Made by a program: the position numbers and the translations under genes. Shown piece by piece: positions 50,248 to 54,794 of a stretch of 64,000 nucleotides of DNA; positions within the stretch are counted from its first letter, which is position 1, and each line of letters opens with the position of its first letter. The notes below the pieces were generated by a model that was given only the letters and a program-made list of their open reading frames with translations, was not told where the DNA came from and searched no databases. The stretch comes from Halomarinibacterium sedimenti (GTDB taxonomy: Bacteria; Bacteroidota; Bacteroidia; Flavobacteriales; Flavobacteriaceae): the NCBI RefSeq assembly GCF_019312585.1, contig NZ_JAHWDP010000003.1, positions 124,001 to 188,000 of the forward strand. The letters run 5' to 3'.

Positions 50248-50405
50248 CAATAACAATCACTAACAAACAACCCTATTAAATACTGTTAAACCCTATTGTA
50301 TAAAAAACAAAAAAACACAATCACTTCATTAGTAAGACTAAAACTGCATCACATTATATTATTAGGAATAACACACTACTAAAAATTTAATAATAATTTT
50401 TATAT

Positions 50406-50421
50406 CGGATATTTTTGTCCG
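50406..50421 (+). promoter_or_regulatory. Candidate Rrf2 operator, site 1 (16-bp inverted repeat)
   Basis: CGGATA-TTTT-TGTCCG with 5 of 6 arm positions symmetric. It overlaps the -33 element (TTTG at 50414-50417) of the promoter with -7 box 50437-50444, so binding would block RNA polymerase. A second copy with identical spacing is upstream of ric (50919-50934). Confidence 0.6.
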
Positions 50422-50444
50422 TTATGAATAAAAGATTATCTTTG
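50414..50444 (+). promoter_or_regulatory. Promoter of the Rrf2 regulator gene (-33 TTTG, -7 TATCTTTG)
   Basis: TTTG at 50414-50417 and TATCTTTG at 50437-50444, spaced 19 bases. The -7 box lies inside a longer reading frame from 50415, so translation must start later, at ATG 50466. Confidence 0.65.
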
Positions 50445-50465
50445 TACTTATATAAAACCCAAGGT

Positions 50466-50900
50466 ATGTTTTCAAAAGCTTGTGAATATGGCATTAGAGC
50501 AACCATTCATATCTCACATCAGTCTCAAAAAGGACAGCGTGTAAGCCTAAAGGAAGTTGCAAAAGCCATAGATTCTCCAGTTGCCTTTACTGCAAAAATT
50601 TTACAATCCTTAGCAAATAACAACATCATTGTTTCTACAAAAGGGGCAACAGGTGGTTATGAAATCCCACAAAGTAACCATGACATAGTAACCCTACTAC
50701 AAATTGTAGAAGCTATTGACGGAGACAATATTTACAATGGTTGTGGCTTAGGCTTAAATCAATGTAACGAACTGAAACCTTGCCCTATTCATTTTCAATT
50801 TAAAGCCATTAGAGATAATTTAAAAAATATGTTACAAACCACCAATATAAACGAATTGGCAAACGGATTGCACAACGGTGTAGCATTCCTAAAAAGATAA
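50466..50900 (+). CDS. Rrf2-family Fe-S cluster-sensing regulator (NsrR/IscR-like)
   Basis: A 144-residue winged-helix repressor starting at ATG 50466 (MFSKACEYGIRATIHISHQS, the typical Rrf2 start); the ORF can be extended to 50415 but that part contains the promoter. The DNA-binding helices are followed by a cysteine motif GCGLGLNQCNELKPC (Cys93, Cys100, Cys106; C-x6-C-x5-C), the likely Fe-S ligands. NsrR-like proteins sense nitric oxide and IscR-like proteins sense cluster status. The context of ric, hemerythrin and an NO-type operator favours a nitrosative-stress sensor. It should repress its own gene and ric. Confidence 0.85.
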   Translation: MFSKACEYGIRATIHISHQSQKGQRVSLKEVAKAIDSPVAFTAKILQSLANNNIIVSTKGATGGYEIPQSNHDIVTLLQIVEAIDGDNIYNGCGLGLNQCNELKPCPIHFQFKAIRDNLKNMLQTTNINELANGLHNGVAFLKR

Positions 50901-50918
50901 AAAAATTTATATCTAAAT

Positions 50919-50934
50919 CGGATACTTTTATCCA
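50919..50934 (+). promoter_or_regulatory. Candidate Rrf2 operator, site 2, upstream of ric
   Basis: CGGATA-CTTT-TATCCA, arms symmetric at 5 of 6 positions. It shares the CGGATA half, the 4-base spacer and flanking AT with site 1; across 22 bases the two sites agree at 18. Confidence 0.6.
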
Positions 50935-50994
50935 CTATAAAACATAATAAAAACCATAAACCTTAAATAATAATCATTAGTAAAATCTATAATT

Positions 50995-51732
50995 ATGAAT
51001 ACACAAGAAAATAAAATAATTGGAGAGTTAGTAGCGCAAGATTACCGCACCGCATCAATATTTAAAAAATACGGAATAGACTTTTGCTGTCAAGGAAATC
51101 GAACCATTAACGAGGCCTGTAAAAAGAAAAAAATAGATTCTCAAAAAGTATTAGAAGAAATCGATATGCTAACACAAACATCTACTGAATCTAGTATCGA
51201 CTACCTATCTTGGCCTCTCGACTTAATCACAGATTATATCGAAAAAAAACACCATCGCTATGTAGCAGAAAAAACAAACGAAATAATCCCTTTTTTAGAC
51301 AAAGTATGTAAAGTCCATGGAGCCCACAACCCAGAGTTATTTGAAATAAGCCAACATTTTAAATCGTCTGCTCAAGAACTAGCAAAGCATATGAAAAAAG
51401 AAGAACTGCTACTATTTCCATTCATCCGAAAAATGGAAAAAGCAACTCAAGAAAACAACTCGTTAGAGTCTCCCCTTTTTGGCACTGTTCTTAACCCTAT
51501 TAATAAAATGATGTTAGAACACTCTAGCGAGGGAGAACGTTTCTTAAAAATTCAAGAACTAACAAACAATTATACACCACCCCCCCATGCATGCAATACC
51601 TATAAAGTGACTTTCGCCCTACTTAAAGAATTTGAAGAAGACCTACACCTACACATCCACCTAGAAAACAACATCCTGTTTCCAAGAGCAATAAAACTTG
51701 AACAAGAATTAAATCATGTCTCAACCTATTAA
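50995..51732 (+). CDS. ric: Iron-sulfur cluster repair di-iron protein (Ric/ScdA/YtfE)
   Basis: A 245-residue protein that repairs Fe-S clusters damaged by NO or oxidants. The N-terminal DUF542 domain has the conserved pair in IFKKYGIDFCCQGNRTINEAC. The hemerythrin-like domain (from about residue 80) provides His/Glu ligands: HHRYVAEKTNEIIPFL, HGAHNPEL, KHMKKEELLLFPFI, LEHSSEGERF and LHLHIHLENNILFPRA. It overlaps the next hemerythrin gene by 17 bases and is preceded by the Rrf2 operator, so it is the core of a stress operon. Confidence 0.93.
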   Translation: MNTQENKIIGELVAQDYRTASIFKKYGIDFCCQGNRTINEACKKKKIDSQKVLEEIDMLTQTSTESSIDYLSWPLDLITDYIEKKHHRYVAEKTNEIIPFLDKVCKVHGAHNPELFEISQHFKSSAQELAKHMKKEELLLFPFIRKMEKATQENNSLESPLFGTVLNPINKMMLEHSSEGERFLKIQELTNNYTPPPHACNTYKVTFALLKEFEEDLHLHIHLENNILFPRAIKLEQELNHVSTY

Positions 51733-52192
51733 ACGTGACCCATCCCTGCAACCCCTTAGTAGAGAACATCATTATGGACTACTACTTTCTTGGAAAATTA
51801 GAGAAGGGTTTAAACGTGAAGTTCCCCCAGAACGAATTAAAAAATACACAAATTGGTTCTGGGAGAACCATCTCGCCCCTCATTTTCAATTTGAAGAGTC
51901 CTACATATTTCCTATACTAGGTAATAAACACAAAGACATCAAAAGAGCAGTAAAAGAGCACCGACGATTAACAAGACTATTTACAAACACAGAAAAACCT
52001 AAAAAAAATCTTTCACTAATTGTAGAAGAACTCGCCGCACATATACGTTTTGAAGAACGCATTTTATTTAAAGAAGTAGAAAAAATAGCAACCCCCACAC
52101 AACTCAACATCATTGAAAAAGAACACTCAAAAAGTATCATAGAATCTTGGGAAGATAAATTCTGGATTAAAGAAGAAAATTATTTCTTGTAA
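51716..52192 (+). CDS. Hemerythrin-domain protein
   Basis: A 158-residue all-helical protein with a hemerythrin HHE pattern: PLSREHHYGLLLSW (His16-type start), WENHLAPHFQFEESYIFPIL, KEHRRLTRLF and IRFEERILFKEVEKI. It should bind a di-iron site and may carry or sense oxygen or NO, or donate iron. It overlaps ric by 17 bases (ATG inside the ric 3' end), showing translational coupling. No signal peptide. It is followed by about 180 bases before the histidine kinase gene, which hold only a near-match -7 box. Confidence 0.88.
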   Translation: MSQPIKRDPSLQPLSREHHYGLLLSWKIREGFKREVPPERIKKYTNWFWENHLAPHFQFEESYIFPILGNKHKDIKRAVKEHRRLTRLFTNTEKPKKNLSLIVEELAAHIRFEERILFKEVEKIATPTQLNIIEKEHSKSIIESWEDKFWIKEENYFL

Positions 52193-52369: not shown

Positions 52370-53449
52370 ATGAATAGTACAGAAGAAACACTTAAAGAAC
52401 GGATTAAAGAGCTCACTTGTCTTTATGAGGTTTCATCTATTATTGTTAATGTAGATGCAAAGCAATTACCGGAGACCCTTTTAGCCATTGCAAAAAGTTT
52501 AAAAAAAGGGTTTCAGTTTCCAAATCATACTGAAATTACTATTAATTCACCTGGAAATACGATTAAAACTGGGAATAGTAATGAATTGTTAAGTATTACT
52601 TCAAACATATATGCATTCAATAAGAAAAAGGGTGAGATTATTGCCTCATTAAATAATGGGAAAGGAAGTTTTTTAAAAGAGGAACAGCAGCTTCTTGACA
52701 ACGTTGCCCTAAAAATTGGAAACTTATTGGAGCGAATTGAGATATTTCAAAACGAAATTTCTTTAAAAAGACAAATGGAACGAGCCGATAGGCTTTCTAT
52801 TATAGGTGAATTAACAGCTGGAATTGCCCATGAATTAAATACCCCTCTAGCAAATATTTTGGGTTTCGCAGAGCTATTAAAAGACAATTTAAAATTCAGT
52901 AACCAATCAGCCGAAGACCTAGACAAGATTATCCAAAATGCAATATTTTCACGTGAAGTTGTAAAAAAGTTAATGTTTTTTGCTTGTGAAATGCCTCAGG
53001 AAATGAAAGAGGTTAATATTGTACCAAGAATTAAAAATGCTATTACTTTACTGGATGCCTCTTTCAAAAAAGCTGAAGTAAAGTATATTGTAAAAATTGA
53101 AGATGAAGAACTCTTATTACGTGCAGACACCATTCAACTTACACAAATCATTTTTAATCTAATTATCAATGCAATATACTTTTCGCCCAAAAATAGCCTT
53201 GTAACCATTGAAGCATTTCAAACGAATAGTCATATTGTATTAAAAATCTCAGATCAAGGATCGGGACTATCTGATGAAGCATTATTAAAGGTCTTTCAAC
53301 CCTTTTTTACAACAAAGCCTACGGGAGATGGCTCAGGTTTAGGTTTAAGTGTAGTACATGGAATTGTATCAAGTCATAATGGTATCATAACAGCAGAAAA
53401 CAACCCTGAGAAAGGTGCTACTTTTACTGTAAAACTGCCTAAATATTAA
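52370..53449 (+). CDS. Sensor histidine kinase (soluble)
   Basis: A 359-residue kinase with no membrane segment, suggesting an intracellular signal. Residues 1-120 form a GAF-like sensor region (KERIKELTCLYEVSSIIVNVDA). HisKA: GIAHELNTPLANILGFAELL with phospho-acceptor His154. HATPase: N box LTQIIFNLIINAIYFSP, G1 SDQGSGLSDEALLKVFQPFF, G2 GDGSGLGLSVVHGIVSS. The response-regulator gene begins 16 bases after the stop, so they form a pair. A near-match -7 box (TATCTTTA) lies at about 52323. Partner genes for the signal are probably the adjacent NO-response genes. Confidence 0.9.
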   Translation: MNSTEETLKERIKELTCLYEVSSIIVNVDAKQLPETLLAIAKSLKKGFQFPNHTEITINSPGNTIKTGNSNELLSITSNIYAFNKKKGEIIASLNNGKGSFLKEEQQLLDNVALKIGNLLERIEIFQNEISLKRQMERADRLSIIGELTAGIAHELNTPLANILGFAELLKDNLKFSNQSAEDLDKIIQNAIFSREVVKKLMFFACEMPQEMKEVNIVPRIKNAITLLDASFKKAEVKYIVKIEDEELLLRADTIQLTQIIFNLIINAIYFSPKNSLVTIEAFQTNSHIVLKISDQGSGLSDEALLKVFQPFFTTKPTGDGSGLGLSVVHGIVSSHNGIITAENNPEKGATFTVKLPKY

Positions 53450-53465
53450 TTACTTTGTAAGGGCT

Positions 53466-54794
53466 ATGCAACTTAAAAAAGAAAATATATTAATTGTAGA
53501 TGATGACATCAACATTTTAGAGTTGTTACAACGCCATTTACAATCTTGGGACTATCACGCTTATAAGGCAATATCGGTTAGGGAAGCAGTTCAAATTTTA
53601 CGAGATACAACTATAGATTTACTCATTACTGACCTTAAAATGCCCGAAGTGGATGGTTTTGAACTTATTAAATTTGTGTCCGAACACTATCCAAAACTTC
53701 CAAAACTTGTCGTAACTGGATATCCTTCGGTTCAGGACTCACTTGTGGCTATAAAGTCTGGCGTAGTTGATTATTTAACCAAACCATTTACCAAGGAAGA
53801 ATTAAAAAGAGCCATAGATAAATCTTTAAACAATAGTAATAACTCTAACTCTTCTTCGCCAAAAACCGAAACACAATTTAACAAGTCCTATGGTGAAATC
53901 ATCGGAAATTCAGAAAAAATCAATGATGTTTTCCAAATAATAGAACGTGTTAAGGATAATAAAGCGACTATTTTCATTAAAGGTGAAAGTGGAACTGGGA
54001 AAGAGCTAGTGGCACGTGCCATCCATTATCAGGGAAAATTTTCTAGAGCACCCTTTATTTCAGTTAATTGCGGCGGTATTCCTGAAAATTTATTGGAATC
54101 AGAATTATTTGGATATACAAAAGGAGCTTTTACGGGTGCCGAAAAAGACCGTGCCGGATTCTTTCAAGCGGCAAACGGGGGTACTATTTTCCTTGATGAA
54201 ATTGGAAATGCTTCTACAGCAGTACAATCACGACTATTGCGTGTGCTGCAGGAAAAAGAGGTTGTAAAGGTGGGGGCTCAAAAGGCCGAAAAAATTGATG
54301 TGCGTATTATTGCTGCAACTAACAGTGATTTAAAGGAGATGATTAAAAAGGAAGCTTTTAGAGAGGACCTCTATTACCGATTAACTGTAGTTGAAATTGA
54401 GGTAGCTCCTTTACGCGAACGTAAGGAGGACATTCCTCTATTGGTGGAGAAATTTCTTTTTAAATACGGTGTAGAATACAAAGACCGTTTTATAAAAATA
54501 AGCGCCGAAGCTTCTACTCTATTACAACGATACGACTGGCCTGGAAATATTCGAGAACTGGAAAACGTGATTCAACGTGCTGTCATAATGTGCGACAAAG
54601 TTATTGAGGTTGAACATCTCCCCGATTCGCTTAAATACATTATTGCTTTTCCTGAAGACACTTTACTACCTTTAAAAGAAATAGAAAAAAGGTATATTCA
54701 AAAAGTACTCAACGCCACTAATAATAACAAAACCAAAGCCGCTGAAATTTTAGGAATTGACCGTAAGACCATCCGGCAAAAACTAACCGATTAA
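53466..54794 (+). CDS. NtrC-type sigma-54-dependent response regulator
   Basis: A 442-residue transcription activator. Receiver domain (residues 1-120) with phospho-acceptor Asp56 (LLITDLKMPEVDGFE). AAA+ domain with Walker A GESGTGKE (173-180) and the sigma-54 contact motif GAFTGA (220-225), and Walker B TIFLDEIG. The C-terminal Fis-type HTH is in NNKTKAAEILGIDRKTIRQKL. It is paired with the soluble histidine kinase upstream. The only good sigma-54 promoter nearby lies 139 bases beyond its stop, ahead of the small-protein/gdhA cluster, making that cluster its likely target. Confidence 0.95.
   Translation: MQLKKENILIVDDDINILELLQRHLQSWDYHAYKAISVREAVQILRDTTIDLLITDLKMPEVDGFELIKFVSEHYPKLPKLVVTGYPSVQDSLVAIKSGVVDYLTKPFTKEELKRAIDKSLNNSNNSNSSSPKTETQFNKSYGEIIGNSEKINDVFQIIERVKDNKATIFIKGESGTGKELVARAIHYQGKFSRAPFISVNCGGIPENLLESELFGYTKGAFTGAEKDRAGFFQAANGGTIFLDEIGNASTAVQSRLLRVLQEKEVVKVGAQKAEKIDVRIIAATNSDLKEMIKKEAFREDLYYRLTVVEIEVAPLRERKEDIPLLVEKFLFKYGVEYKDRFIKISAEASTLLQRYDWPGNIRELENVIQRAVIMCDKVIEVEHLPDSLKYIIAFPEDTLLPLKEIEKRYIQKVLNATNNNKTKAAEILGIDRKTIRQKLTD

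Follow-up and report, generated by a model that had tools for sequence, protein, structure and literature searches.

In the available part of the report on RsrR (PMC5015018), this [2Fe-2S] Rrf2-family regulator of Streptomyces venezuelae was assayed with the EMSA probes ACTCGGATA-N5-TGTCCGAGT and ACTCGGATA-N5-TGTCCGAG, its operator was described as an 11-3-11 repeat, and its targets were taken to suggest a role in NAD(P)H and glutamate metabolism. By the title of another paper, its cluster is held by Cys, Glu and His. NsrR, another Fe-S protein of the family, recognises gATGyAT-N5-ATrCATc according to the accessible part of PMC1274295, and NsrR of S. coelicolor carries Cys93, Cys99 and Cys105 according to that of PMC9338935. 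Nitrosative stress has also been studied in Bacteroides, where the portion available of PMC13370916 describes HcpR, a Crp-family regulator unrelated to Rrf2 proteins, with hcp as its main target. Coastal-sediment Bacteroidota are reported to carry Rrf2 genes in their clade II nosZ clusters, and the role of these genes was called difficult to predict in the part of PMC6264515 at hand. Within the openly available portions of the literature on Rrf2 and NsrR proteins in Bacteroidota and flavobacteria (including PMC9268430 and PMC6950321, with subscription journals and RegPrecise aside), we recognised no description of the regulator or the motif that we report here.

The window, the whole stretch of 64,000 nucleotides of Halomarinibacterium sedimenti DNA that we analysed, holds an Rrf2-family gene (henceforth rrf2) followed by ric and a hemerythrin-domain gene, with one palindrome in front of rrf2 and another behind it (Table 1). 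A sequence-only reading had placed two palindromes here, CGGATATTTTTGTCCG (operator A) and CGGATACTTTTATCCA (operator B), and both are present at the positions it gave; its figure of 18 agreeing bases in 22 across the extended sites is correct for 50404-50425 against 50917-50938 and becomes 17/22 if the frame starts one base earlier. That reading also noted CGGATA as a half-site not familiar from NsrR or IscR. It is indeed not that of NsrR (PMC1274295), but it is known for another Fe-S Rrf2 protein: the RsrR probes in the accessible text of PMC5015018 (CGGATA/TGTCCG) contain the same half-site CGGATA as both window sites. The two systems differ in spacing, N5 for RsrR and N4 for the window sites and their relatives, and resemble each other in that RsrR likely also regulates itself through operators over its own promoter (PMC5015018, as far as available).

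Table 1. Features of the rrf2-ric locus, in window coordinates.
Feature	Position	Strand	Details
Operator A	50406..50421	.	CGGATA-TTTT-TGTCCG (CGGATATTTTTGTCCG); overlaps the -33 box of the rrf2 promoter
-33 box TTTG	50414..50417	+	Inside operator A; read from the sequence; 19-bp spacing to the -7 box
-7 box TATCTTTG of the rrf2 promoter	50437..50444	+	19 bp from TTTG
rrf2, Rrf2-family regulator, 144 aa	50466..50900	+	PF02082, 79.3 bits (cut-off 30); start ATG 50466
Codons of Cys93, Cys100 and Cys106	50742..50783	+	Invariant in 26/26 aligned relatives; likely Fe-S ligands
A7-TTTA block	50899..50909	+	Starts within the stop codon of rrf2, ahead of operator B; conserved in the average of 65 non-redundant relatives
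Operator B	50919..50934	.	CGGATA-CTTT-TATCCA (CGGATACTTTTATCCA); between rrf2 and ric
ric, ScdA/YtfE-type di-iron Fe-S repair protein	50995..51732	+	Presumed target; TIGR03652, 245.7 bits (cut-off 204.7)
Hemerythrin-domain gene	51716..52192	+	Overlaps ric, presumed same operon; PF01814, 42 bits (cut-off 25.3)

By number alone the palindromes do not stand out. Allowing at most two mismatches, CGGATANNNNTRTCCR has 10 matches in the 64-kb window against 8.2 expected, and no excess is seen. The exact pattern occurs twice in the whole genome, both times at the rrf2-ric locus, against three occurrences of a reversed control, while looser patterns are rarer than their controls (84 vs 131 and 42 vs 76). 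The motif search of the organism's own genome that the sequence-only reading had proposed therefore gave no enrichment over controls. With no excess over chance in window or genome, the argument depends on comparison with relatives. Out of 523 relatives in named contigs of Bacteroidota we took the best 80, hence the closest ones, and added 30 loci of the same family and the window's own locus. We dropped three repeated upstream regions, a paralog and a duplicate copy of the window's own locus; after repeat removal 109 upstream regions were left, 108 of them scorable (that of L082 is too short), and for non-redundant counts near-identical proteins were also removed.

A palindrome with the core GGAYA-N4-TRTCC, scoring at least 10, was found in 101 of the 108 upstream regions, against 2/540 shuffled sequences and 1/108 with a reversed matrix, the matrix having been refined on the same regions that it scored; the other seven regions score below 10. 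These are the further copies in relatives on which the sequence-only reading had staked its proposal. With proteins at least 85% identical removed, the site is present in 71/75 upstream regions. Because the matrix had been refined on first-set sequences, we took a later set, leaving out rows with fewer than 60 bases upstream or with a repeated protein. Here the site was found in 35/42 regions at 50% or higher identity to the regulator and in 10/15 at 45-50%, and at score 10 or higher in 4/16 at 40-45% and 4/15 below 40% (8/31 below 45%); only 2 of the 88 later sites are identical letter for letter to a first-set site. Because its frequency falls with identity, the motif belongs to the closer relatives rather than to Rrf2 proteins at large.

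What lies beyond chance is placement and conservation. We scanned all bases of the 80 named loci (best 80 of 523) with a symmetric matrix at score 13: 69 sites lie in front of rrf2, 44 directly behind it and nine elsewhere, none of the nine within an ORF of more than 150 aa. Twenty dyad-preserving permuted matrices gave 0-1 sites before rrf2, none after it and 0-4 elsewhere in the same loci. Operator A is also fixed relative to the promoter. Its spacing of TTTG, 19 bp and TATCTTTG is what we take to be the canonical Bacteroidota -33/-7 arrangement. TTTG occupies the equivalent place in 62/105 aligned sites, 91 of the 101 sites start 57-64 bp before the start codon, and 87/108 upstream regions have a TAnnTTTG -7 box at +30 to +35 from the start of site A, so that the operator covers the -33 box. 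Negative autoregulation is therefore likely, and the twin operators and autoregulatory placement suggested by the sequence-only reading gain support from this comparison, as does its second operator before ric. Site A is also kept where ric is not the next gene (37/41 scorable loci).

The form of the motif is strict in its spacing: GGAYA-N4-TRTCC was found in 62/109 upstream regions, and spacers of 1-3 or 5-9 bp in 0/109. We predict that the regulator would bind the palindrome TWNGGAYA-N4-TRTCCNAW. Of the 73 non-redundant A sites, 51 have complementary bases at the outermost core pair, against 29.8 after shuffling (0/1000 shuffles as high), and 53 at the next pair, against 45.7 (9/1000 as high), in shuffles that ignore the relatedness of the sites. 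The inner core pairs of these 73 sites do not covary, and the same pairs at 47 second (B) sites show no clear covariation above shuffles. Judged from these alignments, the covariation of the outer arms at A fits a symmetric dimer. More distant Rrf2 paralogs (L263-L268) have weak sites near their own genes that are related but different, such as AGGATAAAAAGGTCTT in L266.

Operator B is likewise tied to the end of rrf2. Among 111 downstream regions, 76 carry a site at score 8 or higher and 68 at score 13, and for 66 of these 76 the start of the 22-bp site falls 16-23 bp past the end of the aligned protein. Where ric is linked to rrf2, a score-13 site precedes it in 18/19 cases. Downstream of operator B we recognised no -7 box or canonical promoter. 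On the average of 65 non-redundant relatives, operator B is preceded at near-fixed spacing by A7-TTTR-N5-AAAT (50899-50918 and equivalents), a block that to our knowledge matches no promoter element. The sites, their overlap with the promoter, their conservation, dyad symmetry and linkage are all legible in the DNA itself, and the conserved operator pair at rrf2 is likely autoregulatory. The 4-bp spacer, the second operator just past the stop codon and the wide reach are what is distinctive here.

The regulator belongs to the Rrf2 superfamily (PF02082, and TIGR00738 at 76.8 vs 73.3 bits), and it is at this level only that it exceeds a cut-off. It scores 43.8 vs 207.55 and 30.1 vs 275 bits against curated models of IscR, with which it shares the Rrf2 fold and whose half-site is not known to be CGGATA; 43.4 vs 195 bits against that of CymR, also of shared fold; and 31.7 vs 193 bits against that of RirA. 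Against the NsrR equivalog model NF008240 it reaches 21.3 vs 182 bits, a model that we believe to describe the E. coli type, so that a distant NsrR might also fall short of it. Its best matches among solved structures come from the Rrf2 family, and several of these contain Fe-S clusters. With a profile built from 26 relatives, RsrR ranked first (E 3.8e-8), IscR and CymR followed, and NsrR came last of 12 (E 0.0019). An AlphaFold2 model (pLDDT 85) puts the predicted recognition helix at residues 39-51, and Foldseek with this model also ranks RsrR first, yet the likeness is weak, VIA-align giving close Z values for CymR (16.5), IscR (15.0), RsrR (14.7) and NsrR (14.0).

The start at ATG 50466 is supported by an N-terminus (MFSK, in MFSKAC) invariant in 26/26 aligned relatives. 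It is also favoured by the position of the promoter, with the -33 box in site A and the -7 box at 50437-50444, since the -7 box comes after the other in-frame starts, at 50415 and 50424. With this start the cysteine numbering of the sequence-only reading is right, whereas its view of C-x6-C-x5-C as unusual does not hold: the pattern is the usual one among Bacteroidota relatives (108/109 and 88/88). It differs from the Cys93/99/105 of S. coelicolor NsrR. Glu7 is nearly invariant in the 26 aligned relatives, and three Cys are invariant here where RsrR is described with Cys, Glu and His. The genome holds two other Rrf2 genes, G000:C1:272535-272942 (L139) and G000:C1:492094-492495 (L140), one with C-x6-C-x5-C and the other with a different cysteine pattern; near these two genes nothing above score 6 was found.

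We next turn to the genes linked to rrf2. In the best 80 of 523 relatives, ric lies at most 400 bp after rrf2 in 37/80 loci and within the locus in 60/80, and a hemerythrin relative is present in 38/80. We scanned 40 other proteins, picked for their place in clusters or behind sites, many of which have no family assignment. NorB-type NO reductases were found in L078 (28 bp after a B site that scores only 10.2), in L068 (as second gene after a B site) and in L013; a copper nitrite reductase (NirK, 357 vs 296 bits) lies 48 bp behind a site of score 25.1 (L103); and globins lie behind sites in L059, L062, L081 and L118 and within clusters in L071, L079 and L132. A Crp-type regulator lies behind a site in L065, an anaerobic ribonucleotide reductase was found in L072, and COX1 accompanies a FixO/cytochrome c subunit in the L071 cluster. 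By linkage, then, ric, NorB, NirK and globins are candidate targets of the NsrR type (NO detoxification, denitrification).

Some neighbours are of interest in their own right. Two proteins, L071 6482-9301 and L095 6522-8330, resemble CcoN at 243.7 and 259.3 bits, against a CcoN cut-off of 583 bits, and are candidates for unusual NO reductases; the gene in L071 lies in an rrf2-led cluster with a FixO/cytochrome c fusion, a globin and ric. Tryptophan-dioxygenase-like proteins of 310-320 aa are encoded near rrf2 in L070 (6534-7493), L118 (9716-10654, with its own site 166 bp upstream) and L119 (7654-8583) and are possibly heme proteins linked to NO. In the window, a histidine kinase and an NtrC-type sigma-54 regulator lie directly after the ric operon (52370-54794), and matches to each occur in 5/80 rrf2 loci, both together in 4/80 (best 80 of 523). 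The own genome has two COX1-family genes, with open frames of 610 and 734 aa, which by their size we take to be ordinary oxidases; rrf2, ric and the hemerythrin gene may therefore be the whole local regulon.

Based on the linked genes and the invariant cysteines, the regulator is likely an NO-responsive repressor, and our preferred reading, which we hold with good though not full confidence, is that of an autoregulated Fe-S Rrf2 repressor of NO defence, similar to NsrR, that controls ric through operator B and is released by NO. The rrf2 product would act as a dimeric repressor, with a probable Fe-S cluster on Cys93, Cys100 and Cys106. At operator A it would cover its own -33 box and so repress itself; at operator B it would control the ric-hemerythrin gene pair, presumably by repression rather than activation. 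Its release would come from NO itself or from damage that NO does to the cluster, and would be followed by synthesis of the repair protein and, among relatives, of NO reductase, globins or nitrite reductase. Like NsrR, it would be an Fe-S-type Rrf2 protein encoded beside genes for ric, NO reductase and nitrite reductase that it probably controls. The same repressor and operators could instead answer to redox state or Fe-S supply, in the manner of RsrR or IscR, with NO acting only indirectly. RsrR chains are indeed the nearest solved relatives by sequence and by Foldseek, the half-site is shared with RsrR in the available text of PMC5015018, and some clusters hold genes not named for NO (cbb3-like oxidase subunits, a Trp-dioxygenase-like gene, an anaerobic ribonucleotide reductase). 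We nevertheless regard such a signal as unlikely: the clusters repeatedly contain ric, NorB, NirK and globins, the likeness to RsrR is weak by E value and by the close VIA-align scores, and the RsrR targets named in that text point to NAD(P)H and glutamate metabolism. Among the genes that we examined, those near rrf2 and at a few other sites, the named ones are mostly NO-related.

A further question is whether the Rrf2 protein is itself the binder. That another DNA-binding protein uses the palindromes, with rrf2 merely one of its targets, is conceivable in that the pairing of Rrf2 protein and palindrome is our own deduction and that the histidine kinase and NtrC-type regulator lie downstream here and in the few loci counted above. 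Many loci have the site and lack both of these genes, the site stays with rrf2 where ric is not adjacent, and the type of operator shifts with the rrf2 clade, which together make a different binder very improbable. Indeed, all nine regulators of a clade with Ser43 in the predicted recognition helix have operators with TGG..CCA outer bases, and 0/87 regulators with Ala43 have both of these bases. Three of the nine (L297, L299 and L300) were found after the rule had been set, in a search whose six Ala43 proteins lacked TGG..CCA. One genome has both regulator types (L297 and L306) with different operators, the L306 site being weak (core score 5.4/19.1). Operator and regulator thus appear to change together, the Ser43 clade counting as a single origin. 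Ser43 does not by itself decide the outer base, since L088, which carries Ser43 independently of the clade, has an operator of the CGG type; at six distant relatives that also have Ser at position 43, no operator could be recognised. Finally, the idea that the palindromes are hairpins or terminators of a transcript, which the position of operator B, intergenic and a short way before the following start codon, might suggest, is hardly tenable, since operator A lies upstream of the -7 box and therefore outside the transcript of that promoter, A and B have similar consensus sequences, and no T-run after B is conserved in the 65 non-redundant relatives.

We also asked how far the repressor proposed here might act on genes away from rrf2, in an analysis that took in 59/72 ric places. 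A score-13 site precedes ric in 3/20 cases in which the regulator is present and ric counted as unlinked, and in 2/20 cases in genomes with no close relative of it; at score 10 the figures are 6/20 and 3/20, and neither difference is significant (Fisher p 0.23 at score 10). The comparison is itself flawed, since 10 of the 20 unlinked cases lie within 10 kb of rrf2 and one piece is only 109 bases long, and weaker Rrf2 matches (E 1e-21 to 6e-28) are frequent in the genomes counted as lacking the regulator. That the regulator also controls ric genes not linked to it is thus weakly supported. AAGA-type sites stand before ric in some genomes that lack the regulator; sites of this type also occur at the genes of more distant Rrf2 paralogs, which possibly account for those before ric. 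Across 149 genomes of the family, the strict pattern gave 22 sites in 20 genomes against 12 in a reversed control. Eight lie before rrf2, one upstream of a NorB cluster, two between genes (L169 and L349) and three in other ORFs. The remaining eight, matching CGGAYA-N4-TRTCCG, fall within the coding sequence of what by eye we take to be murG (L006, L159, L162, L166, L168 and L170-L172). Given the sites in murG and other ORFs, the bare pattern is a poor predictor. The best candidate for a target in trans is the NorB cluster of L013, about 1 Mb from its rrf2, where a site of score 27.0 is found 339 bp upstream of the cluster's first ORF, with a divergent ORF 193 bp away.

Taken more broadly, and only tentatively, the regulator might represent an NO-sensing Rrf2 subfamily of the Bacteroidota's own that replaces NsrR across the phylum, combining the half-site of RsrR with a 4-bp spacer and controlling NO detoxification and the denitrification steps from nitrite reductase to NO reductase, including the cbb3-like proteins that may be NO reductases. 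To judge from the conserved sites and their neighbours, this would be a widespread and apparently unstudied switch by which Bacteroidota cope with NO. With a defined operator, the NO regulon around rrf2 in such genomes would be easier to foresee, and the genes behind the operator acquire candidate functions. The two Rrf2 lineages also offer a natural case in which a common half-site is used at spacings one base apart, which can be tested directly by spacer swaps.
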